Shown here piece after piece: positions 18,530-64,000 of a DNA stretch of 64,000 nt. Position 1 is the first letter of the stretch; every line of letters begins with the position of its first letter. The DNA is from an uncultured Flavobacteriaceae bacterium (GTDB taxonomy: Bacteria; Bacteroidota; Bacteroidia; Flavobacteriales; Flavobacteriaceae), in NCBI GenBank assembly GCA_947502495.1, contig CANNAC010000003.1, positions 124,001 through 188,000 of the forward strand, given 5' to 3'. The notes under the pieces are model-generated. The model was not told the DNA's origin and searched no databases. It was given only the letters and a program-made list of their open reading frames with translations. The translations under genes were made by a program, and so were the position numbers.

Positions 18530-20044
18530 TTATACCCAATCTATAGGATTTTGTAATACTTCAATTAAATGTTCTTCTTCACTACCAGCTTCTGGATGAT
18601 GGTCATAAACCCATTGTACATGAGGCGGAAGACTCATTAAAATACTTTCAATTCTTCCGTTTGTTTTTAAACCGAAAAGGGTTCCCTTATCATGCACTAA
18701 ATTGAATTCTACATAACGACCACGACGAATTTCTTGCCAATCGCGTTGTGCTTTCGTATAGTCTAAATCTTTTCTTTTTTCAGCAATAGGAACATAGGCT
18801 TCAAGGAAACTATCTCCAACTTCGGTAACAAAATCATGCCAGTTTTGCATACTCATTTCTTCGGAAGCTTTGCAATAATCGAAGAATAAACCGCCAATAC
18901 CACGACCTTCATTTCGGTGTGCATTATAGAAATATTCGTCGCAACGTGCTTTATATTTTGGATAAAATTCTGGATTGTGTTTATCGCAAGCTGTTTTGCA
19001 AGTCTGATGAAAGTGTTTCGCATCCTCATCAAACAAGTAGTAAGGCGTTAGATCTTGTCCGCCACCAAACCATTGGTCTACAATATTTCCTTCTTTATCA
19101 TACATTTCAAAGTAACGCCAATTCGCGTGTACTGTTGGGACCATTGGGTTTTTGGGATGTAATACCAAGCTTAATCCGCAAGCAAAGAAATCAGCATCTT
19201 CTACACCAAAATACTTTTGCATAGAATCTGGTAATTTACCGTGAACCCCAGAAATATTAACGCCTCCTTTTTCAAAAACGTTTCCGTTTTCTATTACTCT
19301 GGTTCTTCCGCCACCACCTTCAGGACGTTCCCAGATGTCTTCTTGAAAGGTTGCTTTACCATCCACTTTTTCTAGGCCAGCTGTAATGGAATCTTGTAAT
19401 TGATGTATGTATTTGAAAAATGTATCTTTCATAGTACTATTAAAACCTATGTGGTTATTATTTATAACTGTTGTGTCTTTTGTTTCTTGTGGACCTGCGA
19501 GGTTTTCAAAACCTTGTAGGTCTTTATTATGTGAAATAATAAAGTTTTCTTTACTATCAAACAAGTTTAAAACGTAGTCTTTTTTTATTTGAATTATGTC
19601 TTTTTTTGTTTCGATATAGCTTGAGAACGAAGAATACTCATATGTTGTAAAATCACTAACCAAACCATGAGTTTCTGGATTTTTATGAATATATAATACA
19701 AGGTTCTTTAAATAATCTTCATTTTCAATTCTTTTTCTTTTAAAATGTTTTTCAAAAAGACTGCCAGTTCTAGAGTTTTGCTTATTAAATGCTTTTGCAT
19801 ACGCATTAAAAAGATTTGAAATCGCTTGAGTCGCTATTTTTTCAACAGAAACAACTTGAACTATAAAATGAAAATGATTATCTAATAAGCAATATGAAAC
19901 TAGTTCCAGTTTTGTGTCAAAATGCTTTTTTACCAGTTTTAGAAAATATGCTTTGTTTTCTTTATTATTAAAAATAGTGGTACCATTAACTCCTTTGTTG
20001 TAAATGTGGTAGTAATGATTTATTTCTAATTTTTCTAGATTCAT
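18530..20044 (-). CDS. hemF: In-frame fusion of a REP-associated tyrosine transposase (RAYT) to coproporphyrinogen III oxidase
   Basis: One 504-codon frame holds two unrelated proteins. Residues 1 to about 183 are a Y1/RAYT transposase: HUH motif NHFHFIV, candidate catalytic Tyr in NAYAKAFNK, and the family features GSLFEKHFKRK and IHKNPETHGLVSDF. Residues 205-504 are a complete oxygen-dependent coproporphyrinogen III oxidase starting at an internal ATG (19432, MKDTFFKYIHQ). It has the family blocks EDIWERPEGGGGRTRVIENG, FGGGQDLTPYYLF and YVEFNLVHDKGTLFGL and the normal length of 300 residues. The ~20-residue joint is partly encoded by a palindromic repeat (19492-19522). HemF may be made as a fusion or from its own start at 19432; no strong promoter is visible there. 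Confidence 0.85.
   Translation of the reverse strand: MNLEKLEINHYYHIYNKGVNGTTIFNNKENKAYFLKLVKKHFDTKLELVSYCLLDNHFHFIVQVVSVEKIATQAISNLFNAYAKAFNKQNSRTGSLFEKHFKRKRIENEDYLKNLVLYIHKNPETHGLVSDFTTYEYSSFSSYIETKKDIIQIKKDYVLNLFDSKENFIISHNKDLQGFENLAGPQETKDTTVINNNHIGFNSTMKDTFFKYIHQLQDSITAGLEKVDGKATFQEDIWERPEGGGGRTRVIENGNVFEKGGVNISGVHGKLPDSMQKYFGVEDADFFACGLSLVLHPKNPMVPTVHANWRYFEMYDKEGNIVDQWFGGGQDLTPYYLFDEDAKHFHQTCKTACDKHNPEFYPKYKARCDEYFYNAHRNEGRGIGGLFFDYCKASEEMSMQNWHDFVTEVGDSFLEAYVPIAEKRKDLDYTKAQRDWQEIRRGRYVEFNLVHDKGTLFGLKTNGRIESILMSLPPHVQWVYDHHPEAGSEEEHLIEVLQNPIDWV
19492..19522. repeat. REP-like palindrome inside the RAYT-HemF junction
   Basis: Plus-strand arms GACCTGCGAGGTTTT and AAAACCTTGTAGGTC pair over 15 bp (two G-T wobbles) around one base. 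It is translated on the minus strand as DLQGFENLAG. It contains a GTAG tetranucleotide in one arm, as many RAYT-recognised REPs do. Confidence 0.85.
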
Positions 20045-51407: not shown

Positions 51408-51481
51408 TCCTCTTTAGCTCAGTTGGTTAGAGCATCTGACTGTTAATCAGAGGGTCCTAAGTTCGAGTCTTAGAAGAGGAG
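51408..51481 (+). tRNA. tRNA-Asn (GTT)
   Basis: Complete cloverleaf. The acceptor arm TCCTCTT pairs with AAGAGGA, the D arm is GCTC/GAGC, and the anticodon stem TCTGA/TCAGA encloses loop CTGTTAA with anticodon GTT at 51442-51444. The T arm is CTAAG-TTCGAGT-CTTAG, with discriminator G. CA of the CCA end is encoded at 51482-51483. Confidence 0.97.
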
Positions 51482-51493
51482 CAAGTTAGAATA

Positions 51494-51520
51494 AGCCACT
51501 AGAAATAGTGGCTTTTTTTA
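51494..51520 (+). terminator. Terminator after tRNA-Asn
   Basis: AGCCACTA (51494-51501), GAAA tetraloop, TAGTGGCT (51506-51513), then seven T. It isolates the tRNA from the following signalling cluster. Confidence 0.92.
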
Positions 51521-51586: not shown

Positions 51587-51619
51587 ACCATTCGTCTACA
51601 CTTATTTTCCGCTTATCTA
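51587..51619 (+). promoter_or_regulatory. Candidate LytTR-regulator site 1
   Basis: ACCATTCGTCTACACTTA at 51587 and CGCTTATCTA at 51610, 21 bp apart (half-site starts 51589 and 51610). The next gene's -7 box TAGTTTTG is at 51671-51678, 52 bp on, i.e. 30 plus one 22-bp register. It lies 84 bp before the gene at 51703. Confidence 0.6.
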
Positions 51620-51702
51620 TAGTTGTTCTATGTCTTAAAGTTTTTTTTGAAATTTAGATTCTTGTTTATTTAGTTTTGGTCTAGTTAATTCAAACAAATA
51701 CC

Positions 51703-52032
51703 ATGTTCAAGACAAAAACTCCCTCTTGCTTAATTAGAATAAGCAATTTGTTTTTTAAAAAGAAACAAACATTTAGAATAATTAATAAGAATGCGTTTAA
51801 CCAGTATTCCGTTGAAATGAATGGGAAAAAAAATAGTTTGCAAACAATGGGAATAAATGCATTAAATAAAAACATAAAAAACTTAGAATTTATAAATCAT
51901 TTAGAAATGAATTTACAAGACAAGCAATTAAATAATATGCCTCTTGAATTTTTAACAGATTTAAAAACACTAAAGCAGCATTCTCAATGTAATCTTTTAA
52001 AAGCAATTCATACCATGAATACTTTTGAATAA
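51703..52032 (+). CDS. 109-residue protein of unknown function, preceding the NO-sensing cluster
   Basis: A small, polar, Asn- and Lys-rich protein (MFKTKTPSCLIRISNLFFKKK at the start is slightly hydrophobic) with no family I recognise; NLEFINHLEMNLQDKQLNNM suggests helices. It has its own -7 box (TAGTTTTG, 51671) and one of the four recurring regulatory motifs upstream, which supports a real gene under shared control. No homologue or function is proposed. Confidence 0.5.
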   Translation: MFKTKTPSCLIRISNLFFKKKQTFRIINKNAFNQYSVEMNGKKNSLQTMGINALNKNIKNLEFINHLEMNLQDKQLNNMPLEFLTDLKTLKQHSQCNLLKAIHTMNTFE

Positions 52033-52035
52033 GTA

Positions 52036-52108
52036 TATCTAACTATTTCTAAAAACCACTCGTCGACACTTAATTGCTACTCACCTACACTAAAATTGCG
52101 CTAAACGA
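52036..52108 (+). promoter_or_regulatory. Candidate LytTR-regulator site 2 (four phased half-sites) upstream of the NO-sensing operon
   Basis: TATCTAACTA (52036), CACTCGTCGA (52057), TACTCACCTA (52078) and CGCTAAACGA (52099) start exactly 21 bp apart. The last ends at 52108, 30 bp before the -7 box TACCTTTG at 52138-52145. The operon's first ATG is at 52171. Confidence 0.65.
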
Positions 52109-52170
52109 AATTTTAATACGCCGAGATCCCATTAAAGTACCTTTGGGATAATTAAAACTATACCCTCATT

Positions 52171-52584
52171 ATGAATAAAAAACTTAAAATTCTTCTTATT
52201 GAAGATGATATGATCGAAGTAATGAAGCTGAATAGAACTATTTCAACTTTAAAATTAGATCATAAAATCATTGAAGCCAACAATGGAGAAGAAGCTTTAG
52301 AAATATTAGAACAAAAGGATGACTTACCTGATATTATTTTATTAGATTTAAATATGCCTAAAATTAATGGAATTGAATTTTTAAATATCCTAAAAAAGGA
52401 TAGTGTTTTAAAGTACATTCCAACCATAATTTTATCGACATCTAATAATCAAAAAGATTTGCTGGAATGTTACAAAACAGGCGTCGCAGGTTATGTAATT
52501 AAACCCTTAAAATATGAGGATTACGTTAGTAAAATTGAAAAATTATTAGCATATTGGAGTATTAATGAATTAATCGTAGTTTAA
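52171..52584 (+). CDS. CheY-like response regulator, first gene of the NO-sensing operon
   Basis: A 137-residue single receiver domain with acidic pair EDDMIEV, phospho-acceptor Asp in IILLDLNMPKINGIEF, the conserved Thr/Ser (TIILSTSNN) and Lys (GYVIKPLKY). No output domain is present, so it probably acts by protein contact or as a phosphate sink. It is 4 bp upstream of the H-NOX gene and starts the seven-gene operon 52171-58313. Confidence 0.93.
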   Translation: MNKKLKILLIEDDMIEVMKLNRTISTLKLDHKIIEANNGEEALEILEQKDDLPDIILLDLNMPKINGIEFLNILKKDSVLKYIPTIILSTSNNQKDLLECYKTGVAGYVIKPLKYEDYVSKIEKLLAYWSINELIVV

Positions 52585-52588
52585 AATA

Positions 52589-53128
52589 ATGAAAGGTATC
52601 GTTTTTACAGAGTTTTTAGAATTAGTAGAAGATAAGTTTGGTCTAGAAATGGTAGACAATATTATCACGAGTTCTACATTAGAGTCTGAAGGTGTTTACA
52701 CCGCAGTTGGCACCTATAGTTTTTCCGAAATGCTACAATTATTAGGGCATTTAAGTGAAAACACAGGCATTTCTATAGATAACTTACTATTGGTTTACGC
52801 AGAGCACTTTTTTAGCGTTATTGAAAAAAGTTATCCAGGCCTTTTAGCTACCTATAAAGATCCTATTGAAATGATTTCATCTATAGAAAATCATATTCAT
52901 GTAGAGGTTAGAAAAATTTATCCGGATGCAGAATTACCAACCTTTGAAGTCATAGAAAAAACAGAGAACTCATTGGTGATGATATATAAATCTAGTAGGT
53001 CTATGCATCATTTTGGTTTAGGATTAATGAATAAGACATTTGAGCATTTTAATGCAACAGCGACCATAGATTTGCAAAAAATTAAAGAAGATGGAACCGA
53101 AGTTAGATTTGTTATTCATAAAAATTAA
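52589..53128 (+). CDS. H-NOX (haem NO-binding) sensor protein
   Basis: A 179-residue haem-NO/oxygen-binding domain. Start MKGIVFTEFLELVEDKFG; proximal haem His in NHIHVEVRKIYPDA (His 104, by alignment to the T. tengcongensis H-NOX); haem-propionate YxSxR motif in IYKSSRSM (Tyr133-Ser135-Arg137). The distal Tyr of O2-binding H-NOX is replaced by Phe142 (HHFGLGL), so NO selectivity is predicted. Its stop overlaps the start of the next kinase gene (TAATG), which fits the known H-NOX/histidine-kinase pairs. Confidence 0.93.
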   Translation: MKGIVFTEFLELVEDKFGLEMVDNIITSSTLESEGVYTAVGTYSFSEMLQLLGHLSENTGISIDNLLLVYAEHFFSVIEKSYPGLLATYKDPIEMISSIENHIHVEVRKIYPDAELPTFEVIEKTENSLVMIYKSSRSMHHFGLGLMNKTFEHFNATATIDLQKIKEDGTEVRFVIHKN

Positions 53129-55086
53129 TGAGTCAAGATCAAACCGAAATATTACAACGTGCGTTAAAAAGAGAACGAGCTGCCCGAAAAGCAGCCGAAA
53201 AAATTCTGGAAGAGAAATCCAGAGAGTTATACTTTACCACACAAAAGCTAGAACTTCTTCTAGACGAGAAATCGACACAACTAGAAGGTGTTTTTGAAAA
53301 TATTCTAGATGCATACGTCGTTATGGATTTGGAAGGTAACTTCATAAAATTTAACGAAGCAGCAACCAAATTATTTGGGTATGATATAGCTAGAGACCAA
53401 GTAAATGTAATAAACCTTATCTACAAAGAAGATGTTTCTTACGCAATGACCTCTTTCTTAGAATTACAAAACAAAGGTTTTTTTAAAAATTACGAGGCTA
53501 GAGTATATACCAAATCTAAAGAAGTAAAATGGGTGCATATAAATGCAAGTGTAATTTATGATAAAGACAAAATCCCAGTAGCAGCACAAGGTGTCGTTAG
53601 AGATATTACAGAGCAAAAAATATCGGAAGAAAAATTAATAGAATCAGAAAACAGATTAGCTACACTAATCTTAAATTTAGATAGCGGTATAGTTTTAGAA
53701 GACGAAAACCGAGAAATAGTACTCACAAATAATAAATTTTGTGAGCTTTTTAAAATCAATGCAAAACCTACAGATTTGTTAGGTATGGATTGCACAGCCG
53801 CATCCGAACAAAACAAAATATTGTTTAAAGATCCAGAAGGATTTATAGATAGAATGCGCGCTATAGACATCGATAAAAAAACAGTATTGGGTGATGATTT
53901 AGAAATGCTGGATGGTAAAATCCTCGAGCGTAACTATATGCCAATAAAAATAGGAGATAACTATAAAGGCTATTTATGGACCTTTAAAGATGTAACACTA
54001 AATCGTACCTATAGAAAAAGCCTAGAAGCACAAAAGCAAAAATATTATAATATTATTGCAAATATGAATTTAGGAATGGTAGAGCTAAACAACAATGACG
54101 AAATCCTGATGGTAAATCAGAGTTTTGAGAAAATGTCTGGCTATACCGAAGCAGAAGTTATTGGGAAAAATGCAAGAACACTTTTTTCTACAGAAGGCGG
54201 AGAAGAATTGTTAAAAGAAGAAAGAGAGAAACGACAAAAAGGACTATCCAACTCTTACGAAATCAAAGCTGTTTGTAAAACAGGAAAGACGAGACATTGG
54301 TTAGTAAGTGGTGCACCAAACTATAATATAGATGGTGAAATAATTGGGTCTATTGGAATCCATTTAGATATTACAGAAACTAAAAACCTAGAAGTTCAAA
54401 AAGAAAAATTATTAGAAAAACTAGAAAGAAGTAATGACGAATTACAAGAATATGCACACATCGTATCGCATGATCTAAAATCGCCTTTACGTAGTTTACA
54501 TGCTTTAGTCAGTTGGTTAAAAGAAGATAATCAAGGGAAATTGGATACGGTGAGTCTTCAAAATTTCGGACTTATTGAAACCACTTTAGAGAAGATGGAG
54601 CAGCTAATTACAGACGTGTTAAATTACTCTAGTGTAGGTGCTGACAATGCTGTTAAAGTGGATGTAGATTTAAATAGTATGGTTAGCCAATTGATTAGTA
54701 TATTATACATTCCGGAGCATATAGAAATTAAAAGTCTTCATGTATTGCCTAATATACAAGGAGATAAAACAAAGCTGCAACAGCTATTTCAAAACCTAAT
54801 TAGTAATTCTGTTAAGTTTATAGATAAAGAGTGTGGTAGTATTATAATAGATGTAGAAGATTTAAAAAGTCACTACAAGTTTTCAATACAAGATAATGGT
54901 ATTGGTATTGATAAAAAGTATCACGATAAAATATTTAAAATATTCCATTCTTTAAAGAAAAGTAAGGATTCCTCAGGAATTGGATTATCTATCGTTAAGA
55001 AGATTGTCAATTTGCATGACGGAGAAATATGGTTAGATAGCGAACCAAATGTAGGAACTACTTTCTATTTCACATTAAAAAAATAA
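53128..55086 (+). CDS. Multi-PAS cytosolic histidine kinase (H-NOX-associated)
   Basis: A 652-residue soluble kinase. A basic coiled-coil start (RALKRERAARKAAEKILEEK) is followed by three PAS regions (about 50-165, 170-290, 305-425; FNEAATKLFGY, TNNKFCELFKI, VNQSFEKMSGYTEAE). The HisKA box is YAHIVSHDLKSPLRS and the ATPase boxes are LFQNLISNSVKF, QDNGIGIDKKY and SSGIGLSIVKKIV. No membrane segment, so it reads cytosolic signals. The H-NOX gene overlaps it by one base, so H-NOX is its likely partner. Confidence 0.93.
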   Translation: MSQDQTEILQRALKRERAARKAAEKILEEKSRELYFTTQKLELLLDEKSTQLEGVFENILDAYVVMDLEGNFIKFNEAATKLFGYDIARDQVNVINLIYKEDVSYAMTSFLELQNKGFFKNYEARVYTKSKEVKWVHINASVIYDKDKIPVAAQGVVRDITEQKISEEKLIESENRLATLILNLDSGIVLEDENREIVLTNNKFCELFKINAKPTDLLGMDCTAASEQNKILFKDPEGFIDRMRAIDIDKKTVLGDDLEMLDGKILERNYMPIKIGDNYKGYLWTFKDVTLNRTYRKSLEAQKQKYYNIIANMNLGMVELNNNDEILMVNQSFEKMSGYTEAEVIGKNARTLFSTEGGEELLKEEREKRQKGLSNSYEIKAVCKTGKTRHWLVSGAPNYNIDGEIIGSIGIHLDITETKNLEVQKEKLLEKLERSNDELQEYAHIVSHDLKSPLRSLHALVSWLKEDNQGKLDTVSLQNFGLIETTLEKMEQLITDVLNYSSVGADNAVKVDVDLNSMVSQLISILYIPEHIEIKSLHVLPNIQGDKTKLQQLFQNLISNSVKFIDKECGSIIIDVEDLKSHYKFSIQDNGIGIDKKYHDKIFKIFHSLKKSKDSSGIGLSIVKKIVNLHDGEIWLDSEPNVGTTFYFTLKK

Positions 55087-55088
55087 CA

Positions 55089-56222
55089 ATGAAAACAGTA
55101 CAATTAGTAAAACATAAAAATAAAGATTGGGAATACGTAATCGAAAAACAAGAATTAAAAGAACCTTTAGTTATTGTTTTTGGGAATAGATATTTGTTAG
55201 AAGCAGATTCTATTTACGAAGATATTAGATTGTTATTTCCAGATGGACATATTATTTTTGGTTCTGCATGTGCCGAAATTTCATCAGATACCGTAAACGA
55301 AGAAAGTATTACGGTAACCGCGATAGAATTTGAAAAAAGCAACTTCTTAATTAAAACAAGTAATGTTTTAAATGCCGATTTAGACAGTTTTAAAACAGGA
55401 GATAATCTTATTAAGCAATTCCCAAAAGAGGGCTTAAAATACGTCTTTGTAGTGTCAGAAGGCAGCTTTATAAACGGTAGTCAGCTTACCAAAGGGATGA
55501 GTGCTTCTACTGGTGATAATTTAGTAATCACTGGTGGATTATGTGGTGACGATGCACGTTTTGAAAAAACATTAGCGTCTTATAATGAAAACCCTAAAGA
55601 AGGGGAGTTAGTTGCTGTTGGATTTTATGGAGAAACACTAGAAATATCTTTTTCTATTCATGGTGGATGGACACCTTTTGGACCAGAACGTATTGTTACA
55701 AAATCGGAAGGCAACACATTGTATGAATTAGATGGTCAGCCAGCTTTAGATTTATATAAAAAATATTTAGGGGATAAAGCTAAAGATTTACCAGGAGCAG
55801 CCTTATTGTATCCTTTAAATGTAACATCTGCAGATGAAAATCAGTCTATTGTAAGATCTATTTTGAATATTAATGAAGAAGAAAATGCTGTGATTTTAGC
55901 AGGAGATATTAAAGAGAACTCCAAAGTGCAGCTCATGATGACCAATGTAGATAATATTGCAAATGCATCCGAACGCGCTGCAAGACAAGCTTTAGAATAT
56001 AGAACTAACAAACCAGATTTAGCTATACTAGTAAGTTGTATTGGTAGAAAACTAGTACTAGACCAACGTGTAGAAGAAGAAATTGAAGAAGTAATTGATG
56101 TACTAGGAAAAGATACCGTTATCACAGGTTTTTATTCTTACGGAGAAATAGCACCTTTTCATGGAGAAATGGCGTGTCAGTTACATAATCAAACCATGAC
56201 TATAACGCTAATTAGCGAATAA
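55089..56222 (+). CDS. FIST-domain protein (NosP-like)
   Basis: A 377-residue protein with FIST_N (LVIVFGNRYLLEADSIYEDI, IIFGSACAEISSDTVNEESI) and FIST_C (ELDGQPALDLYKKYLGDKAK, AILVSCIGRKLVLDQRVEEE, GFYSYGEIAPFHGEMACQLHN). FIST proteins include NosP, a haem-binding NO sensor acting on a neighbouring kinase. Haem binding by this one is not shown by the sequence. It lies between two histidine kinases, overlapping the second by one base. Confidence 0.9.
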   Translation: MKTVQLVKHKNKDWEYVIEKQELKEPLVIVFGNRYLLEADSIYEDIRLLFPDGHIIFGSACAEISSDTVNEESITVTAIEFEKSNFLIKTSNVLNADLDSFKTGDNLIKQFPKEGLKYVFVVSEGSFINGSQLTKGMSASTGDNLVITGGLCGDDARFEKTLASYNENPKEGELVAVGFYGETLEISFSIHGGWTPFGPERIVTKSEGNTLYELDGQPALDLYKKYLGDKAKDLPGAALLYPLNVTSADENQSIVRSILNINEEENAVILAGDIKENSKVQLMMTNVDNIANASERAARQALEYRTNKPDLAILVSCIGRKLVLDQRVEEEIEEVIDVLGKDTVITGFYSYGEIAPFHGEMACQLHNQTMTITLISE

Positions 56223-57286
56223 TGAATTCATTATTAAAAAGACAAATACGTAAATTTTTAAGTGAAGAATTAAAAAACAATGGAGATTTAACTGCGTTTA
56301 TTAATGCTGTTGACCTTTCCTATAATAATTTTGACGAACAATCTAGCATGATTCAAAGAGCTATGTCTATTAGTTCGGATGAGTTATATAGTGCTAACCG
56401 AAAGCTGCAAAAAGAAGCAGAAGAGCAAAAAGAAGTCATTGATAAATTAAAAGACGTTATCCATACACTAAAGTTTTATAATTTAAAAGAAAACGAAAAT
56501 CTGGAAGAAGTAGAACTAACAGGTTCAGGTTTGGTAGATTTTATTGATAATCAAACCAAAGAGATTATCGAAATGAATAAACAAAGACAATCTCTTTTAA
56601 ATGAATTAGCACATCAAAACCAAGAACTTAGTGATTATGCACATATGGTATCTCACGATTTAAAATCACCATTGCGCAGTATAGATACTTTAACAGCTTG
56701 GTTAACGGAAGATTATAAAGATGCTTTTGATGCTAGTGGTAAAAACACATTACATCTTATTAGAAATAATGTAGAAAAAATGGATACCTTAATTAATGGT
56801 ATTTTAGAGTATTCCACCATTGATAAAAATCAAATGGAGCTTTATGATGTCGATTTAAATAATCTTATAGACAACATCTTGAGTAGTATTAAAATCCCGG
56901 ATCATATTCACATAACAAAAACCAATCTGCCAACAATAAAAGGAGATAAATACAGGCTACAGCAATTGTTTCAAAACCTAATAGGTAATGCTATTAAGTA
57001 TAATGATAAAGCACAAGGAATTATTGAAGTTGGCGTAGAAGATCAAGATAACTATTGGCAATTTTATATAAAAGATAACGGAAAAGGTATAGAAGAAACC
57101 TACTTTGATAAAATTTTCAAAACCTTTGAAAAATTAGAAAACAATCCAGATTCATCAGGAATTGGATTGTCTATTGTAAAAAAAATTGTGGAATTATATG
57201 GTGGGAAAATATGGCTAGAATCACAAGTGCATATTGGAACTACTTTTTATTTCACCTTAAAAAAATCCCCAAATGGAACAACCTAA
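56222..57286 (+). CDS. Cytosolic histidine kinase (FIST-associated)
   Basis: A 354-residue kinase. The first ~140 residues are helical coiled coil (ANRKLQKEAEEQKEVIDKLK) without PAS domains. HisKA YAHMVSHDLKSPLRSIDTLT, then LFQNLIGNAIKYNDK, KDNGKGIEETY and SSGIGLSIVKKIV. Its C-terminal half is very like that of the upstream kinase, so the pair probably arose by duplication. It lacks a sensor of its own, so the FIST protein or the coiled coil likely provides input. It overlaps the Hpt gene by 14 bp. Confidence 0.92.
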   Translation: MNSLLKRQIRKFLSEELKNNGDLTAFINAVDLSYNNFDEQSSMIQRAMSISSDELYSANRKLQKEAEEQKEVIDKLKDVIHTLKFYNLKENENLEEVELTGSGLVDFIDNQTKEIIEMNKQRQSLLNELAHQNQELSDYAHMVSHDLKSPLRSIDTLTAWLTEDYKDAFDASGKNTLHLIRNNVEKMDTLINGILEYSTIDKNQMELYDVDLNNLIDNILSSIKIPDHIHITKTNLPTIKGDKYRLQQLFQNLIGNAIKYNDKAQGIIEVGVEDQDNYWQFYIKDNGKGIEETYFDKIFKTFEKLENNPDSSGIGLSIVKKIVELYGGKIWLESQVHIGTTFYFTLKKSPNGTT

Positions 57287-57590
57287 CCAATCCTACATTA
57301 ATAGCTTGTCTGGAGACGACAAAGCTTTCAAACAAAAATTAATTGACGTTATTAAAAAAGAGTTTCCAGAAGAGAAACAGGTGTATTTGGATAACTACAA
57401 TGCTAAAAATTATAAGTTAGCAGCAGATAATGTGCATAAACTTAAACATAAAATTAGTATTTTAGGCCTTGAAAAAGGGTATGAAGTTGCTGTAGCGTAT
57501 GAAAATAATTTATTAGAAGGTTCTATGGACCAGAAAGATTCATTTGAAGCTATACTAATCAATATAACCAAATATCTAGAAGAAATTTAA
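57273..57590 (+). CDS. Hpt phosphotransfer protein
   Basis: A 105-residue helical protein. The phospho-acceptor His is in ADNVHKLKHKISILGLEKGY, the pattern of Hpt domains (HxLK...lG). It would carry phosphate between the kinases and the receivers encoded at both ends of the operon. It overlaps the upstream kinase gene and is 9 bp from the LytTR gene. Confidence 0.85.
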   Translation: MEQPNQSYINSLSGDDKAFKQKLIDVIKKEFPEEKQVYLDNYNAKNYKLAADNVHKLKHKISILGLEKGYEVAVAYENNLLEGSMDQKDSFEAILINITKYLEEI

Positions 57591-57599
57591 ACACAACGT

Positions 57600-58313
57600 A
57601 TGAATTGTATTGTTATTGATGACGAAGCAACAGCTAGAATGATTATTTCTCAATTGTGCTCAAATGTACCAAGTCTTAATGTTTTAGAGGAGTTTCCTAA
57701 TGCAATGCAAGCCATTAAATATTTAAACCAGAAGGAAGTCGATTTAATTTTCTTAGATATACATATGCCCGATTTTACAGGTTTCGACTTTATTGAAACA
57801 CTTAAAAATCCACCAAAAATTGTACTTACAACATCCGATCCTAATTTTGCTATTCAAGCATTTGAATATGATTGTATAGTAGATTATTTAGTAAAACCAA
57901 TAACACAAGAGCGTTTTCAAAAAGCAATTGATAAAGCAGAAGCAAAACAAAGTAAACCCGCTGTAATTGCATCTAAAGCAGAAAAAGTAGAAAGTACTTC
58001 TGGTAACGATTTATATGTAAATATTGATAGACGCTTAATTAAAATTGATATCCCAAGTATTTATTTAGTAGAAGCAAAAGGAGATTACATTCAAGTGAAA
58101 ACCGAAGATAAAAATTATACCGTACATTCTACTTTAAAGAAAATTGAAGACAAACTACCAGATAGTTTGTTTCTAAAGGTGCATAGATCGTATATTATAA
58201 ACATTCAAAAAATAATCGATATTGAGGATAATAGTGTTTTAATTAAAAAAGATGTTATTCCTGTTAGCAGATCGAACAGACCAGAATTAATGAAAAGATT
58301 AAATTTGTTATAA
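57600..58313 (+). CDS. LytTR-family response regulator
   Basis: A 237-residue two-domain regulator. The receiver has acidic pair IDDEATARM, phospho-Asp in LIFLDIHMPDFTGFDF and conserved Lys in DYLVKPITQERF. The C-terminal LytTR DNA-binding domain has YLVEAKGDYIQVKTED, LKKIEDKLPDSLFLKVHRSY and IPVSRSNRPELMKRL. LytTR domains bind 9-10 bp direct repeats spaced about two helical turns apart, the geometry found at four sites in this region. It is last in the operon and the likely output. Confidence 0.95.
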   Translation: MNCIVIDDEATARMIISQLCSNVPSLNVLEEFPNAMQAIKYLNQKEVDLIFLDIHMPDFTGFDFIETLKNPPKIVLTTSDPNFAIQAFEYDCIVDYLVKPITQERFQKAIDKAEAKQSKPAVIASKAEKVESTSGNDLYVNIDRRLIKIDIPSIYLVEAKGDYIQVKTEDKNYTVHSTLKKIEDKLPDSLFLKVHRSYIINIQKIIDIEDNSVLIKKDVIPVSRSNRPELMKRLNLL

Positions 58314-58447
58314 TACTTGTATTACAACGATTTTTTTAAGGCATTCGTCTTAAAGTATTTTTCAAGTCCTATTTAAAACAGCAATAAAATGAATTCCCAT
58401 TATTTTTGAGATGTAATCAGTAAAGGGATTCATTGGTTAGTAAGTTA

Positions 58448-58482
58448 AAGGACAGGAATTAATTTTTCTGTCCTTTTTTTTA
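58448..58482 (+). terminator. Terminator of the NO-sensing operon
   Basis: AAGGACAG (58448-58455) and CTGTCCTT (58468-58475) with a T-run, 135 bp after the LytTR stop. The 489-bp interval 58314-58802 also holds the possible short RNA at 58568-58650 and regulatory site 3. Confidence 0.88.
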
Positions 58483-58567
58483 TAAAAATAATTAGAGATT
58501 TAAAAGTACTCTTGAAGTGTTTAAGTTTGCTTAACCTTTAGTTACCCTATGCTCCAGCACCGCAAAG

Positions 58568-58650
58568 TAGTTTTGTTTTTATAGTTGTCCCTAACAATTA
58601 TGAATGCATCGTTTGAAAAAAGGCATAAGAGCAATCTTTTGCCTTTTTTT
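58568..58650 (+). ncRNA. Possible short transcript (small RNA or mini-ORF) with own promoter and terminator
   Basis: TAGTTTTG (58568-58575) is a -7 box. A hairpin AAAAGGCA (58618-58625) / TGCCTTTT (58640-58647) with T-run gives a terminator about 65 bp on. Inside is a 21-codon frame beginning ATG at 58601 (MNASFEKRHK ...) that runs through the terminator hairpin, so a short RNA is more likely than a peptide. The -33 element is weak. Confidence 0.3.
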
Positions 58651-58690
58651 AGTATTTCTATTTAAACCTCTAGAAAATAGGTTTATAAAG

Positions 58691-58743
58691 CGTTTAACTA
58701 AATGTTTTTACCATTCATCTATACTTAAAATTGCACTTATCGA
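58691..58743 (+). promoter_or_regulatory. Candidate LytTR-regulator site 3
   Basis: CGTTTAACTA (58691), CATTCATCTA (58712) and CACTTATCGA (58734) start 21 and 22 bp apart. The last ends at 58743, exactly 30 bp before the -7 box TAGTTTTG (58773-58780) of the CAP-domain gene. Confidence 0.65.
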
Positions 58744-58802
58744 AAAGTATAAAACCTAGCGCTCTTTACATATAGTTTTGTCATCAAATTAAACCAAACC
58801 CG

Positions 58803-59297
58803 ATGAAAAAATTAGTAACTACCACAGCAATCGTATTCAGTATCTTTTTAATGTCTTGTTCCGTATCGGAAGAAGGTAACACTGCAACACAGAATGCTTC
58901 CGAAATTATAGACATAGAGTACGCACAACTAGATTATGAAATAGCAGAACTAATTAATGCACATCGAATTTCTATAGGCCTTCAAGCTTTAAATATTTTA
59001 AATCATGCTTCGGCTGAAGCAATTTCACACAACCAGTATATGGTCAATCAAGGCGTGCTAAGTCATGATCATTTTAATGAGCGTTCTCAAAACTTAAAAG
59101 AAGTAGTGCATGCAAAACAAGTATCCGAAAATGTTGGATATGGTTATTCATCGGCACAATCTTTAGTGAATGCTTGGTTAAATAGTGAAGGTCATAGACA
59201 AGCAATAGAAAACCCAATATATACAGATTTTGGTATCTCTTCAAAGAAAGATGCTATAGGAAGTGATTATGTCACTAACATTTTTGTAAAGCTTTAA
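58803..59297 (+). CDS. CAP/SCP-domain secreted lipoprotein
   Basis: A 164-residue protein with a lipobox (FLMSCSVSEE) and a CAP (SCP/PR1-like) domain: AELINAHRISIGLQALNILN, SHDHFNERSQNL, VSENVGYGYS and AWLNSEGHRQAI, which contain the conserved His/Glu residues. Its role is unknown; CAP proteins are secreted and often of adhesive or hydrolytic type. It follows regulatory site 3, so it is a likely target of the LytTR regulator. Monocistronic, with site 4 directly after its stop. Confidence 0.9.
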   Translation: MKKLVTTTAIVFSIFLMSCSVSEEGNTATQNASEIIDIEYAQLDYEIAELINAHRISIGLQALNILNHASAEAISHNQYMVNQGVLSHDHFNERSQNLKEVVHAKQVSENVGYGYSSAQSLVNAWLNSEGHRQAIENPIYTDFGISSKKDAIGSDYVTNIFVKL

Positions 59298-59298
59298 T

Positions 59299-59350
59299 AG
59301 CTTATCTACATATTTTTACCATTCGTCTACACTTAAATCGCACTAAACGA
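59299..59350 (+). promoter_or_regulatory. Candidate LytTR-regulator site 4
   Basis: AGCTTATCTA (59299), CATTCGTCTA (59320) and CACTAAACGA (59341) start exactly 21 bp apart. The last ends at 59350, 30 bp before the -7 box TAATTTTG (59380-59387) of the T9SS gene. The first half-site begins one base after the previous gene's stop. Confidence 0.65.
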
Positions 59351-59413
59351 AAAACATATTTTAAGGCAAGTTATACTCGTAATTTTGTCTTGTAAATAAG
59401 AAATAAACAAATC

Positions 59414-62014
59414 ATGACAACAACATTACACGATATTAAAAATCAAATAGTAGTATTATTCGTATTGCTTTTTAGCTTTTCTAGCCAAGCACAGAATATT
59501 CCTTTTAATTGTGACTATAGCGCATACCTTTTTCAGTATAACGATGTGTATGCAATTGATTTAGCATCTGGTAATTCTTACCTTGCCGCTTCCGATATTA
59601 CAGCAGGAAACATAAACGCAACCGCATACAATCCTGCAGATGGTTATATTTGGGGATATTTAAGCACGCCTTCTCAAACTATTGTTAGAATCGGAAAAGA
59701 TTTTCAAACCACCTCTTTTAACGTTCCAGAATTAACAAACGGTAATAAATATGTTGGAGATGTTAGTCCGGAAGGAATTTATTATTTAAAAGCAGGCGGA
59801 ACAAGCTACTTTAAAATAGATTTAGATCCTAGCTCAACAACCTATACGCAATACTTATCTACAGAATCTTTATCGCAAAATATTAGCATTCATGATTGGG
59901 CTTTTAATGCGGTAGATGGTAATTTGTATGCCGTAGAAAAAAACACTAATATATTATATAGAATTGACCCAATAACAAGTGCTGTAGTAGCCTTAGGAGA
60001 AGTGCCAATTTTATCTGGATTAAATTATACTTACGGTGCCGTTTATTTTGATGGTGACGGACGTTTTTATGTATCTGCCAACCAAACAGGAACCATATAC
60101 ATGATTCAAAGTGTACAAGATTTAAATCCAACATCTACCATGGACGCTAACTTATTTGCATTTGGCCCTTCAAGTGCTAGTAATGATGGAGCGCGTTGCC
60201 CAACAGCACCTGTTGCGCAAGAGATTTGTGATAACGGTATTGATGATGATGGTGATGGTTTAATAGATTGCGAAGATCCTTCCTGTTCTGGTTTTGGTAG
60301 TTGTGACGAAATTGCGGCGCCAACCACTGCTAATGATGGAGGTTTAGAAAGTAATGGAAGATTATCGGAAGCAATCAACAAACGTAACTTTAATCGTGCA
60401 AAAAAGAGCTACAAATTCGATCAAAAGTCTGCAAGACGTATAACGAAAAGTAAAGACGATTTTTCCTACAGAACAGCGAATAGCTTTCAATTGCAAGATT
60501 TTGTACCCCTAACAACTATTAATGAAGATTATGCTATAGATTCTACACCTACAGATCTTTTGAATATTACCAATGCCACAGAAGTGTATGCTGTAGATTA
60601 CATGCGAAATGATGCTTCTATTGCTTCTATTTTAGCTTTAAAAACAGAAAATGGGGTATATGAACACACCAAATATATTTGCGACAGATTATTAGGAGCA
60701 GAATTGATTTCGGTATCTACTATAGATATTAATGACCAAGCATTTATAAAGTCCATTATTAAAAATGCCGATGGTTCTTATGAATATGTATTGAGTTTGT
60801 CTGCTAAAGTAGCTAATAACGACGCTAATTTTGAAGTAGAATCCCACTGGAATTTAGATGTATACGAAGCAGATGTAACCTTTTATAACTTTCAAATCTG
60901 GTCAGACTCTATAGATGATTTATACAGCCTTGCTCAAGAAGTGTTAAATTTATTAGATGTTGTTAAACCAATTTCAAATTATAATTTATCAACGCCTCCA
61001 ACGGTTTTTGTAAGAAAAGGAAAATATAACAATGGCGCTTTAGACCTTCAAATTATTAATACCAATGCAACAGAAAATGTAACCTTCGATTCTGGATTTA
61101 GAGAAACAGAAACTAGTGATTTTAACTACACATCTTCTAACCTAGACTTAAACGAAAACTACATTACAGATATTCAAGTTCCAACGGGAAAATTGTTTGA
61201 CGTAGGATTTAGAATAGGAGATGGAATACACACACCAGACGATTTGTTTATGTCGGATGGTCCTTGGGGAATCGATGATTCGCAAGCAGGTACCGTGGTA
61301 ACGAACTACGCTATCTCTCCTAACAACAATGATTTTGATGTAGCAGATTTTCCTATAGAAAGAAACCTATCGTTAAGCGCAATGACAAGTACTTATTTTG
61401 CGGCTTACAGAGCATTAACGCCACGTTTTAAAGCCGTAGACTTAACAGACTATAATAACTTTAAGTTACACGCAAAAGGAACTGGAAATTTAGAAATTAC
61501 TTTTGTAAAACAAAGTATTACCAATTGGGAAGAGCAATACAAAACAAACATTACGTTAACAGAAAACTTTCAAAACTTTGAAATACCATTTTCAGAATTT
61601 AGATCTTCATTAAACGAAGACTTGGTATTAGATGATATGGTAACTATAGTCTTTACAATGGTTAGTGAAGATGGTAGACGAACATCAAAAGAAATGCAAT
61701 TGCAAGATGTACGTTTCTCTACAGGAAATACTTTATCCGTAACCAATATAGAAACAGAAGCGAGTGTACTTGCAGTATATCCAAATCCGATGCTTTCAAA
61801 AGCAAACATACACTTTACAGCAAACCAAACCGAAACGATTCATTTAACCATCTACAACCAATTAGGTAAAGTAGTATATACAACAACTGCAAAAGCGCAA
61901 CCTGGTAAAAACCAAATAGCAATAAGCAGACAGCATTTAAGTACAGGTTTATATATCTGTAAATTATCAGGCACACAAATCCATTATAATCCCTTGAAGT
62001 TACTTGTTAAGTAA
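59414..62014 (+). CDS. Large T9SS-exported surface protein with beta-propeller-like N-terminal domain
   Basis: An 866-residue protein. A signal peptide (ends SSQAQN) precedes a ~240-residue beta-propeller-like region (DUF6923 type; YAIDLASGNSYLAASDI, YNPADGYIWGYLS, NAVDGNLYAVEKNTNILYRI). A calcium-type linker CDNGIDDDGDGLIDCEDPSC follows, then a long middle part rich in beta strands, a jelly-roll-like domain (LTDYNNFKLHAKGTGNLEIT) and a type A sorting domain (VYPNPMLSKANIHFTANQTE). No catalytic motif is visible. It is controlled from regulatory site 4, hence a likely surface output of the phosphorelay. Confidence 0.88.
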   Translation: MTTTLHDIKNQIVVLFVLLFSFSSQAQNIPFNCDYSAYLFQYNDVYAIDLASGNSYLAASDITAGNINATAYNPADGYIWGYLSTPSQTIVRIGKDFQTTSFNVPELTNGNKYVGDVSPEGIYYLKAGGTSYFKIDLDPSSTTYTQYLSTESLSQNISIHDWAFNAVDGNLYAVEKNTNILYRIDPITSAVVALGEVPILSGLNYTYGAVYFDGDGRFYVSANQTGTIYMIQSVQDLNPTSTMDANLFAFGPSSASNDGARCPTAPVAQEICDNGIDDDGDGLIDCEDPSCSGFGSCDEIAAPTTANDGGLESNGRLSEAINKRNFNRAKKSYKFDQKSARRITKSKDDFSYRTANSFQLQDFVPLTTINEDYAIDSTPTDLLNITNATEVYAVDYMRNDASIASILALKTENGVYEHTKYICDRLLGAELISVSTIDINDQAFIKSIIKNADGSYEYVLSLSAKVANNDANFEVESHWNLDVYEADVTFYNFQIWSDSIDDLYSLAQEVLNLLDVVKPISNYNLSTPPTVFVRKGKYNNGALDLQIINTNATENVTFDSGFRETETSDFNYTSSNLDLNENYITDIQVPTGKLFDVGFRIGDGIHTPDDLFMSDGPWGIDDSQAGTVVTNYAISPNNNDFDVADFPIERNLSLSAMTSTYFAAYRALTPRFKAVDLTDYNNFKLHAKGTGNLEITFVKQSITNWEEQYKTNITLTENFQNFEIPFSEFRSSLNEDLVLDDMVTIVFTMVSEDGRRTSKEMQLQDVRFSTGNTLSVTNIETEASVLAVYPNPMLSKANIHFTANQTETIHLTIYNQLGKVVYTTTAKAQPGKNQIAISRQHLSTGLYICKLSGTQIHYNPLKLLVK

Positions 62015-62149: not shown

Positions 62150-62554
62150 CTATTGATTTTGGGTCATATTTTCAACAAGATCAATTACTGTTTTTCTGGT
62201 TACAGGTTTTATAATAAAATCGGTTATAAGTTCGTATTCTTTTGCCTTTTGGAAATCCACAGGGTCAATAGAGGAACTCACTAGATATAATGTGATTTTT
62301 TTTGAAACCGTCATGGTTGTAAATTCATCTAGAAATTGCCATCCATCCATGATTGGCATATTTATATCCAATAAAATAAGCTCAGGAATATGTTTTCCAG
62401 ATGCTATTGTTTGTGTTAAACCTTCAATTGCTTCTTCCCCATTATTGTAAACTGTGAAGTTTTCACAAACATCAGACAGTTTAAAAATTCTTTTAATAGC
62501 AAAAATAAAAACGGGGTCATCGTCAATTAAACAGACGGAATTAATTTGCTTCAT
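62150..62554 (-). CDS. CheY-like response regulator
   Basis: A 134-residue single receiver: DDDPVFIFAIKRI acidic pair, phospho-Asp in LILLDINMPIMDGWQF, Lys in DFIIKPVTRKTV. It overlaps the histidine kinase upstream of it on the minus strand by 14 bp, so they are a cognate pair. It converges on the T9SS gene. Confidence 0.92.
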   Translation of the reverse strand: MKQINSVCLIDDDPVFIFAIKRIFKLSDVCENFTVYNNGEEAIEGLTQTIASGKHIPELILLDINMPIMDGWQFLDEFTTMTVSKKITLYLVSSSIDPVDFQKAKEYELITDFIIKPVTRKTVIDLVENMTQNQ

Positions 62555-64000
62555 ATCTTAAATATATTGAGAATGTTGTACCATCATTAACTTTACTAGC
62601 AACTTCTACTTTACCGTCCATGGCATCAATTTGATTTTTTGTAATGTAAAGACCTAAACCTCTAGCATCTTCATGTTGATGAAATGTTTTATATAAACCG
62701 AAAATTTTATCTTTATGTAAGTCTAAATTAATACCAAGACCATTGTCTTCAATATTAATTTTTACATAATTATTAATTTTCTCTGCATTAATATTTATTA
62801 CAGGAATACTATCTTCTTTTTTATATTTAATAGCATTCGATAAAAAGTTTAATAAAATACTATCTAAATATGCAGGAACAGCTAGTACTTCTATTTTATT
62901 ATTAATATCAATATTTATTTTAGCATTGGTATCTAGTATTTCTGCTCTAAAAGTTCCTAATGCATTATTCGTGAAATCTAATAAATTATTACTTTCTAAT
63001 TCTTGTTTTTCTTTTGTGTTAATATCTGCTACTTCATTTAAATTTTGAATCGTTTCACTTAATTTGTTTACGGCTTCACTTATTAAAGGAAAAAACTCGT
63101 TTTTAGTAGATTCTGGGATCTCTTCTTGCATTAATTCTAATAGCATTTCTAAATTACCAGAATGAGATCTTAAATTATGAGATACTATATGTGCAAAATT
63201 TTGAAGTCTTGTGTTTTGACTTTTTGTGGTTTGCAATAGGTATTCAATTTTTTTATTTATCGCTTTACTTTTCGTTATATCAATAATAGTAGATATAAAA
63301 TGCAGGGGTTTGTTTGCATCATCTCTAACTATAGAAACAGATAGTAAACAGTAAATGATAGACCCATCTTTTTTTAGATACCTTTTTTCACATTCAAAAC
63401 TATCCTTTTCACGATTAATCATTTCCTTAATGTGTATTGGTATAATGTTGATGTCCTGCGGATGAGAGAGTTTATTTACATACGTATGCATTAGCTCCTT
63501 TTTGGTATAACCTAAGTAGCTACAGAAATTTTTATTTAAATCTATAATTTGACCTTCCAATCCTACTAATGCCATGCCATTTGGCGCATTCTCTATGGTT
63601 GTGCGTATTAATTTTTCCTTGTACTCTAGTTCTTTAAAAGTGTTTGTTTTTTCAGTAATATCTTGAAAAACACCAAGTATTTTAACCACTTTATTGTTTT
63701 TTAAAATAGGAAAACCAATAGATCGTACCCATTTTAAATTGTTTTTAGCAGTCCGTATTAATAATTCGGCGTCAAACTCTTCTCCATTATTTACTGCGTT
63801 ATTAAATAGCACAGTTATTAAATCTCTATACTTTCCTTCTTCGTAAAAATGTATAGCTTCTTCCACATTTGGCGAATAATCATCTTCTACCTCATGGATG
63901 GATCTTGTCATAGCACTCCAAGTTATTTCCATGGTTTTTAAATCTACTTCCCAGGATCCAATTGCAAGGGATTGTTGTATGGTATCTAAAAAAGAATTTG
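62541..64000 (-). CDS. PAS-domain histidine kinase, 5' end outside window
   Basis: The frame is open through the window edge; the ATG at 63932 is internal, because the residues before it (SLAIGSWEVDLKT) continue a normal PAS strand. Two PAS domains are visible (the first to about 63640, with WVRSIGFPILKNNKVVKILG; the second ENAPNGMALVGLEGQIIDLN, LGYTKKELMHTYVNKLSHPQ). A HisKA-like box (FAHIVSHNLRSHSGNLEML) follows, then an ATPase (LLNFLSNAIKYKK, IEDNGLGINLDLHK, GLGLYITKNQID). The HisKA resembles the HWE-like SHNLRS variant. It pairs with the receiver at 62150. Confidence 0.9.
   Translation of the reverse strand, partial: NSFLDTIQQSLAIGSWEVDLKTMEITWSAMTRSIHEVEDDYSPNVEEAIHFYEEGKYRDLITVLFNNAVNNGEEFDAELLIRTAKNNLKWVRSIGFPILKNNKVVKILGVFQDITEKTNTFKELEYKEKLIRTTIENAPNGMALVGLEGQIIDLNKNFCSYLGYTKKELMHTYVNKLSHPQDINIIPIHIKEMINREKDSFECEKRYLKKDGSIIYCLLSVSIVRDDANKPLHFISTIIDITKSKAINKKIEYLLQTTKSQNTRLQNFAHIVSHNLRSHSGNLEMLLELMQEEIPESTKNEFFPLISEAVNKLSETIQNLNEVADINTKEKQELESNNLLDFTNNALGTFRAEILDTNAKINIDINNKIEVLAVPAYLDSILLNFLSNAIKYKKEDSIPVININAEKINNYVKINIEDNGLGINLDLHKDKIFGLYKTFHQHEDARGLGLYITKNQIDAMDGKVEVASKVNDGTTFSIYLRYEAN

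Follow-up and report, generated by a model that had tools for sequence, protein, structure and literature searches.

The window analysed here is a 64,000-nucleotide stretch (contig C3:124001-188000 of a 4.07-Mb genome) from an uncultured member of the Flavobacteriaceae, and it carries a repeated word upstream of several genes of one cluster. We predict that the LytTR response regulator encoded at 57600-58313 uses this word as its operator. Our reading, to which we assign a probability of roughly 80%, is that the regulator is fed by a phosphorelay and activates its own operon together with surface and matrix genes. Comparison of the sequences supports a regulator-linked regulon of seven promoters, which is conserved in many genera of one family and is larger than first noted. 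Positions are those of the window unless a contig or locus is named.

Half-sites and their distance to the core promoter

The preliminary description of this stretch reported motifs at four promoters, here called A to D, and all four are confirmed. The 18-mer ACCATTCGTCTACACTTA has four + strand matches at up to three mismatches in the window, at 51587 (0 mismatches), 52055 (2), 58710 (2) and 59318 (0), where dinucleotide shuffles of the window predict 0.04 and no shuffle reached four. Scored with the half-site consensus of that description, and with offsets counted from the A of ACC, half-sites start at 2 and 23 in promoter A, at 2, 23 and 44 in B, at 2 and 24 in C, and at 2 and 23 in D. The numbers of half-sites had been over-called as 2, 4, 3 and 3; the scoring gives 2, 3, 2 and 2, with no support for four at promoter B or three at C and D. 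Each half-site is 10 nt long and starts 21-22 bp from its neighbour, so the spacer is 11-12 nt. The TAnnTTTG boxes start at offsets 84, 83, 63 and 62 (A to D), and the gap between the end of the last half-site and the box is 51 bp in A and 29 bp in B, C and D. The constant gap described earlier holds in its pattern, with three equal values and the box of promoter A one register farther away, although the values are 29 rather than 30 bp and 51 rather than 52 bp.

Promoter A (51587-51678) is the only one that joins an empty third register to a TTG 21 bp ahead of the -7 box, and the only one of the window's four with a TTG where a -33 element is expected. With these two features, promoter A may possess a -33 element and depend less strictly on the regulator.

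Across the family, the distance between half-sites and box falls into two classes. For the geometry we compiled 393 unique sites (at least 13 bits each) from 119 loci and the window; of these, 357 are the first in their array. These first sites are followed by 157 perfect TAnnTTTG boxes, of which 74 lie at offsets 62-65 and 69 at 83-85 (143/157), and any other offset holds at most two. When all 393 sites are counted, 148 of 163 perfect boxes are found at the favoured offsets, a figure in which two strong half-sites may count twice. A perfect box is present 20-130 bp downstream of 158/393 sites, compared with 31/393 on the opposite strand. Half-sites that match at 8 or more of 10 positions are found at -19 in 47 and at 23/24 in 63 arrays of the 62-65 class (n = 74), and at 23 in 34 and at 44/45 in 28 arrays of the 83-85 class (n = 69), against a background of 2.5-3.3 at the average offset; both classes therefore include arrays of three half-sites. 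In either class, a proximal half-site seen at 23 or 44 leaves a gap of 29 bp to a box at 62 or 83. A TTG starting 19-29 bp upstream of the box is seen in 6/74 and 5/69 cases. With the -7 box placed at -12 to -5 (PMC9723704), the proximal half-site falls at about -51 to -42, on start sites predicted from the box only. LytTR operators are described as two direct or inverse repeats of 9-11 nt with spacers of 11-13 nt (PMC4847170), and the operators of LytTR regulatory systems (LRS) have mostly 12-bp spacing, often 10 bp upstream of the -35 element (PMC6193735). The present sites are 10-nt repeats with an 11-12 nt spacer just upstream of a core promoter (143/157 boxes), and by this layout appear to belong to the LytTR direct-repeat kind.

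Throughout the genome, the 18-mer has ten matches at up to three mismatches and the reversed pattern has one. In addition to a position weight matrix trained on six own-genome sites and a further matrix from 13 genus site words, we used a profile (R2) of 77 sites, with 71 from family loci and 6 from this genome; one of the 72 family sites picked (L170:10048) was left out. R2 finds seven sites at E<=0.01, all on the same strand within 26.5 kb (C3 175,587-202,097), with promoter A ranking second, and the eighth-best match in the genome has E = 0.38. Six of the seven belong to the training set and the site before the STAS gene stands outside it; three (C3:191817, 194685 and 202074) lie beyond the right edge of the window. 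A motif scattered genome-wide, which the preliminary description had named as counting against its proposal, is not what this genome holds. A sigma-70 scan of the stretch was uninformative (43 found, 40.7 expected).

Distribution of the sites and of the regulator gene

The evidence that ties the sites to the regulator comes from their joint distribution. Among 299 family genomes, H-NOX is present in 105 and a LytTR orthologue (E<=1e-70) in 113; 99 genomes have both genes, 14 LytTR only, 6 H-NOX only and 180 neither. R2 sites at E<=0.01 are found in 103/113 LytTR carriers and 5/186 non-carriers. With the 34 model-building genomes excluded, the held-out genomes give 69/79 carriers against 5/186 non-carriers (Fisher 3e-46, a value that ignores phylogeny and treats genomes as independent, while close relatives remain among those held out). 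At E<=0.003, sites occur in 90/99 genomes with both genes, 12/14 with LytTR only and 1/6 with H-NOX only. This indicates that site presence follows LytTR, and the 12 LytTR-only genomes with sites rule out H-NOX presence as the determinant. Of the best 150 family sites, 125 share a contig with the LytTR gene at a distance of at most 35 kb (64/82 in held-out genomes), 7 share one at a greater distance, 16 lie on another contig and 2 in genomes without an orthologue. An order-wide sample, which partly overlaps the family sample and includes G000 and G007 from the training set, gives sites in 18/20 carriers and 10/226 non-carriers, with 19 of the 20 carriers from the window's own family. Among the discordant within-genus pairs listed (many genomes lie outside the tables), g1, g7, g18, g32 and g51 agree at E<=0.01. 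Three genomes (G137, G446 and G521) hold two copies of the LytTR orthologue each.

Within the genus, six of seven genomes carry the LytTR orthologue at 93-100% identity, and the seventh, G002, has none (best 41%). Thirty of 31 motif matches at up to two mismatches lie in the cluster of the six carriers, with one elsewhere (G001:C22:300523). G002 has zero such matches, and at three mismatches it has three compared with two for the reversed control. A profile built from the first six own sites (R1) finds 32 matches at E<=0.01 in the genus, all in the cluster and 6 of them training sites; its best match in G002 has E = 0.70. The 21-bp register is plain in G005 (L175), where the promoter before RR1, the counterpart of B, carries the 18-mer at G005:C42:299334 and again, exactly 21 bp on, at 299355 (0 and 2 mismatches), ahead of an RR1 gene starting near 299450. 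The window also holds a single 19.0-bit copy, ACCATTGGTCTACAAT, at 19069-19084 (+), with no neighbouring site in the scan. The word ACCATTGGTCTACAATTT is present in G001 and in G002 as well, and since G002 lacks the regulator, this copy looks like chance. In L297 and in G055, H-NOX has an in-frame TAG and there is no LytTR orthologue at E<=1e-70, and sites are still found upstream of RR1, the stand-alone receiver gene of the operon; these are perhaps decaying copies of the system.

Sites and regulator also move together. Forty H-NOX regions were fetched from 40 of the 105 H-NOX genomes, and 38 were kept after L131 and L142, which have no RR1/H-NOX of this type, had been excluded. Matches in tblastn covering less than 40% of the query were dropped from the genus, H-NOX-region, co-movement and named-locus counts, and those covering less than 30% from the LytTR-only and remote-site regions. 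All 34 regions with a LytTR orthologue have a sense-strand site of at least 12.5 bits at -76 to -126 of RR1 (opposite strand, 1/34), and the RR1 promoters of the four regions without one score 11.6, 11.5, 3.8 and 6.6 bits. These four (L143, L157, L160 and L169) were considered as natural LytTR deletions and dropped as such, because their genomes carry the orthologue elsewhere (63-68%). In three of these genomes (G232, G177 and G017), LytTR has its place outside the H-NOX cluster, beside an RR1-like gene. The RR1 promoter of their H-NOX cluster scores 11.5, 6.6 and 3.8 bits, whereas the RR1-like gene beside LytTR is preceded by site pairs 21 bp apart (22.7/16.3, 22.7/19.0 and 19.9/17.3 bits, in the same order). 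Two of the three genomes also have sites ahead of flippase- or glycosyltransferase-like genes. As the sites precede the RR1-like gene beside the relocated LytTR gene, they go with the regulator in three of the four genomes. The proposal that the sites belong to the LytTR gene at 57600-58313 is therefore strongly supported, both by co-occurrence in 299 genomes and by co-movement in three.

In named genera (Lacinutrix, Oceanihabitans, Winogradskyella, Olleya, Algibacter, Psychroserpens, Tamlana, Dokdonia and others), the sites stand ahead of the starts of transcription units. We took the best 80 of 558 named loci, which share species with the family genomes, so that the two locus samples are not independent, and counted sites of at least 12.5 bits within 250 bp of a gene. 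A site precedes RR1 in 79/80 loci, the glycosyltransferase in 35/40, CAP in 16/17 and DUF6923 in 54/69. Genes internal to the operon are preceded by none: LytTR, Hpt and the second histidine kinase in 0/80 each, H-NOX in 0/78, the PAS kinase in 0/69 and FIST in 0/54. Rows for RR62150 in these counts were taken as RR1 cross-matches and left unused.

Sixteen regions with remote sites were fetched as well. In four of them a site stands before a gene of this locus: DUF6923 and STAS in L303, a STAS-like gene and a glycosyltransferase in L306, a glycosyltransferase and a large membrane protein in L307, and STAS in L308. In four more (L305, L309, L314 and L315), the site precedes a protein with a secreted- or lipoprotein-like N-terminus, and in the remainder the gene behind the site is of another kind or was not assigned. 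L304, L307 and L311 have sites on opposite strands, overlapping or adjacent, as in a divergent promoter. In L300 (G210:C1:2022000-2041000), three sites of 19.9-22.7 bits have boxes at offset 62, with the LytTR gene far off on the same contig, at about 40 kb. Two of these sites lie ahead of genes outside the known cluster, one for a receiver-like and one for a secreted-looking protein, which are possible new targets.

Genes of the cluster and the predicted relay

Seven co-directional genes lie between promoters B and C, encoding RR1, H-NOX, a PAS histidine kinase, FIST, a second histidine kinase, a 105-aa Hpt protein and LytTR (Table 1), and the position of promoter B ahead of this operon suggests autoregulation. 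In the domain scan, LytTR is the sole recognised DNA-binding domain of the operon. The regulator joins a LytTR domain to a receiver, with its phosphoacceptor D53 present in 39/39 rows. Its FLKVHRS (F, H and R in 38/38 rows, S in 37/38; K in 30, Q in 7 and R in 1 at the third position) fits the LytTR motif FhRhHRS (PMC4227749) save for K or Q in place of R. A solved-structure search with this protein returned receiver-domain matches only among the best 60 of 76 and of 212, and NCBIfam gave nothing above its curated cut-off among the matches listed.

The operon encodes the parts of a His-Asp-His-Asp phosphorelay, namely kinase, lone receiver, Hpt and output regulator, and their phospho-residues are conserved. 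YxSxR is a criterion for H-NOX proteins, and the H-NOX here has the domain, the proximal histidine (His102) and YxSxR. The phospho-residues D59 of RR1 and H55 of Hpt and the H-NOX residues are invariant in the rows examined, with RR1 and H-NOX rows below 120 bits excluded from the alignments. All 34 aligned Hpt orthologues match Pfam Hpt at E<=1 (best 1.5e-7), and the window protein by itself scores 0.0021, under the curated cut-off; a solved-structure search with the Hpt profile gave weak matches only. The best solved relative of the H-NOX is 6bdd (E 7.6e-95), the H-NOX of Kordia algicida, whose pocket favours nitric oxide (NO) in simulations (PMC7356049), and FIST is the family that contains the NO sensor NosP (PMC8738867). 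From these two likenesses, NO is the likely signal.

Table 1. Predicted promoters, genes and other features of the cluster (window positions unless C3 is given; L009 positions in brackets)
Feature	Position	Strand	Details
Promoter A	51587-51678	+	half-sites 51589-51598, 51610-51619; -7 box TAGTTTTG 51671-51678; before ORF 51703-52032
Small open reading frame (ORF), 109 aa	51703-52032	+	behind promoter A; 49-85% identity in genus loci; no Pfam family
Promoter B (operon promoter)	52055-52145	+	half-sites 52057-52066, 52078-52087, 52099-52108; -7 box TACCTTTG 52138-52145
RR1, stand-alone receiver	52171-52584	+	Pfam Response_reg 6.1e-22; D59 phosphoacceptor in 42/42
H-NOX haem sensor	52589-53128	+	Pfam HNOB 1.2e-38; His102 and YxSxR in 42/42
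PAS histidine kinase	53128-55086	+	domain scan
FIST protein	55089-56222	+	Pfam FIST and FIST_C
Second histidine kinase (HK2)	56222-57286	+	domain scan
Hpt phosphotransfer protein, 105 aa	57273-57590	+	His55 in 41/41
LytTR response regulator	57600-58313	+	Pfam LytTR 2.2e-21 (76.4 bits, cut-off 22.6), Response_reg 1.4e-18 (67.5 bits, cut-off 30.2)
Terminator-like hairpin	58447-58476	+	3' of LytTR gene; 8 such sites in stretch, 3.0 expected
Promoter C	58710-58780	+	half-sites 58712-58721, 58734-58743; -7 box TAGTTTTG 58773-58780
CAP-domain protein	58803-59297	+	Pfam CAP 2e-13; lipoprotein-like N-terminus
Promoter D	59318-59387	+	half-sites 59320-59329, 59341-59350; -7 box TAATTTTG 59380-59387
DUF6923 protein	59414-62014	+	domain scan; Por_Secre_tail sorting domain
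Site before STAS gene	C3:191817 (L009:5818)	+	second half-site 21 bp on; CATCTTTG at offset 63
Site before glycosyltransferase	C3:194685 (L009:8686)	+	profile match
Site before receiver-glycosyltransferase fusion	C3:202074 (L009:16075)	+	profile match

In the mechanism that we propose, the LytTR regulator would bind two or three 10-bp half-sites on one face of the DNA, repeated in steps of 21-22 bp, or two helical turns. The proximal half-site would typically end 29 bp upstream of the sigma-A -7 box TAnnTTTG, at about -42, and the bound regulator would act as an activator on which most of these promoters most likely depend. We favour activation over repression because of where the sites lie and because a TTG is mostly missing from the -33 region. 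The predicted targets comprise the regulator's own operon (lone receiver, H-NOX, the two kinases, FIST, Hpt and LytTR), the secreted or surface proteins CAP and DUF6923, and the neighbouring exopolysaccharide-type locus with its STAS, flippase and glycosyltransferase genes. In the most economical reading, phosphate would probably pass from kinase to RR1, then to Hpt and then to LytTR. H-NOX, and possibly FIST/NosP, would be sensory inputs, probably for NO, and optional ones, since genomes lacking H-NOX keep LytTR and, for the most part, kinase and Hpt genes; by analogy with known systems (PMC8738867), NO binding by H-NOX may control the adjacent kinase, and matrix or biofilm would be the output.

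To the right of DUF6923, a receiver-like/kinase-like ORF pair is followed by genes for TPR, STAS, flippase and glycosyltransferase proteins, a GH5-like protein and a mannose-6-phosphate isomerase, and judging by these enzymes the locus appears to be of exopolysaccharide type. In two genus relatives (L172 and L173), the receiver-like/kinase-like pair (62150-63932, - strand) is found on the opposite side, beyond ORF 51703, and it seems to have changed sides of the cluster. Directly upstream of promoter A and ORF 51703-52032, a tRNA-Asn is followed by a terminator-like hairpin (51493-51514; 51408-51514 overall), a region that is a possible insertion point.

Four other explanations deserve consideration. 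The most resilient, though unlikely in our judgement, accepts that the sites belong to LytTR and holds that H-NOX and FIST are not its input, their proximity being that of an operon shared with another output. LytTR is found without H-NOX in 14/113 carriers, and exopolysaccharide-type genes of this locus remain near LytTR in 6/13 of the regions fetched from them. However, 99/105 H-NOX genomes carry the LytTR orthologue and 180/299 genomes have neither, and RR1 and Hpt proteins with invariant phospho-residues are encoded beside the kinases and LytTR. We consider it improbable that the LytTR protein binds these sites as a repressor released by a signal. CoxC offers a precedent, since it represses by means of a LytTR domain and has three direct repeats spaced two turns apart (PMC11347149), but its repeats overlap the -35 box, whereas the present sites leave 29 bp between the proximal half-site and the -7 box. 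The rarity of a TTG in the -33 region fits activator-dependent promoters, and the one-register steps fit contact with polymerase.

Recognition of the sites by another DNA-binding regulator, encoded elsewhere or RR1 itself, is very improbable. The genome does hold 11 matches to the LytTR protein at E<=1e-20, yet LytTR is the operon's only recognised DNA-binding domain, and G002 keeps LytTR paralogues (best 41%) with neither the orthologue nor the sites. RR1 was rejected as the binder, as it consists of a receiver domain only and is left behind without good sites in G232, G177 and G017, where LytTR lies elsewhere. Finally, an alternative-sigma promoter variant or a dispersed repeat would account for the location of the motif at promoters, but this is scarcely credible and we reject it in view of the seven genome sites at E<=0.01 in one cluster, of half-sites that end at least 29 bp upstream of a sigma-A-type -7 box, and of their variable number at 21-bp steps.

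Several observations weigh against operator function of these sites under LytTR as we describe it. Ten of the 113 carriers have no site at E<=0.01; seven of these are weakly positive at 0.1, and G092, G181 and G284 have none even at that threshold. Conversely, sites at E<=0.01 turn up in five of the 186 non-carriers and, at the stricter E<=0.003, in three: G009, G164 and G055, of which the first two are 80% and 87% complete assemblies and the third has the H-NOX with an in-frame TAG. The pair in genus g4 is discordant in the wrong direction (G009, site and no orthologue), and the Fisher values ignore phylogeny. In G184 (L143, L202), where LytTR lies elsewhere, there are weak sites only (13.3 and 11.6 bits). 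Regions from 13 of the 14 LytTR-only genomes (all except G175) were fetched, several on short contigs, and a site of at least 13 bits stands ahead of a gene in 8 and not in 5. At the level of the promoter, a perfect TAnnTTTG follows only 158/393 sites, so in many promoters the box is imperfect or this pattern detects none. Promoters E and STAS carry CAAATTTG and CATCTTTG in its place, and promoter A combines a TTG 21 bp before its box with an extra register that has no recognisable third half-site. In the named loci, STAS is preceded by a site in 22/40 and the flippase in 7/49, and the gene type of promoter F (RRGT) in 0/7, its site being found before RRGT within the genus.

Comparison with known systems and biological meaning

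The closest parallels in architecture are AgrA, YpdB and the streptococcal LRS. They share the DNA-binding domain family, repeats of 9-11 nt and spacers of 11-13 nt upstream of the core promoter, and LRS operons are autoregulated (PMC4847170, PMC6193735, PMC4227749). Unlike these systems, the present one has the consensus ACCATTCGTCTACA, of which we found no description in the literature searched, and often a third half-site; it also has a Bacteroidota -7 box mostly without a -33 TTG, shifts of one register, an RR1/Hpt relay and H-NOX/FIST inputs. AlgR of Pseudomonas aeruginosa, to which the motif had been likened, is also a LytTR regulator; it controls alginate genes, and its site CCGTTCGTC is identical to CCATTCGTC at 8/9 positions (PMC4064291). 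The likeness stands for the sequence, with the best window sites one base away from the AlgR 9-mer, but not for the arrangement, as AlgR sites lie far apart and are not necessarily direct repeats with 12-bp spacing (PMC4064291), whereas those here are phased. For this reason AgrA, YpdB and LRS are the better architectural parallels, and we do not place the sites in an AlgR regulon.

Gas-linked control by LytTR proteins has a precedent in the response to carbon monoxide (CO). CoxC has three direct repeats at intervals of about two helical turns and RcoM a triplet; however, CoxC joins sensor and LytTR in one protein, represses, and has another repeat sequence (PMC11347149). The H-NOX networks of Vibrio and Shewanella also combine H-NOX with a histidine kinase and a phosphorelay, with exopolysaccharide output through syp in V. 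fischeri, but the outputs named in the available part of that account are cyclic di-GMP enzymes, HnoC, quorum sensing and Syp, with no LytTR output among them (PMC8738867). The LRS-like operons of Bacteroides come from the same phylum and have LytTR regulators with predicted repeats upstream of promoters; they differ in their 11-bp repeats at 11-bp spacing and in transmembrane regulators encoded beside a membrane protein (PMC6193735). A search at the level of titles and the beginnings of abstracts, with many subscription papers and all bioRxiv preprints outside its scope, found neither a LytTR binding site in Flavobacteriaceae nor a LytTR output for H-NOX, which is weak evidence that none exists. 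In PMC4603819 neither LytTR nor heme NO appears as a term, and the available part of PMC5552118 yielded no motif letters.

The host is a marine-type flavobacterium, and its LytTR regulator probably switches on surface-polysaccharide genes. To our knowledge, binding sites are known for few regulators of the Flavobacteriaceae, and our analysis offers for one of them a candidate consensus, a promoter geometry, likely targets and a distribution (113/299 family genomes). The predicted regulon can be put to the test in genera that include named strains, among them Lacinutrix, Winogradskyella, Olleya, Algibacter and Tamlana. In addition, it provides a candidate output for flavobacterial H-NOX proteins, for which there is a crystal structure (Kordia algicida, 6bdd) and, in the parts of the literature examined, no downstream pathway. 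It is tempting to go further and picture a conserved gas-to-matrix switch of the Flavobacteriaceae, a tentative picture whose chances we put somewhat below even. In such a switch, two candidate NO sensors, H-NOX and a NosP-like FIST protein, would feed a four-step relay ending in the LytTR activator, operators built on a 21-bp ruler would set promoter strength through half-site number and register shifts, and the operon, the secreted proteins and the exopolysaccharide locus would be switched jointly. If true, the literature searched would offer no precedent for it, either as an H-NOX pathway that ends in a LytTR output or as a mapped LytTR regulon of the Flavobacteriaceae. The predicted regulon also makes it directly testable whether NO controls matrix production in these bacteria.

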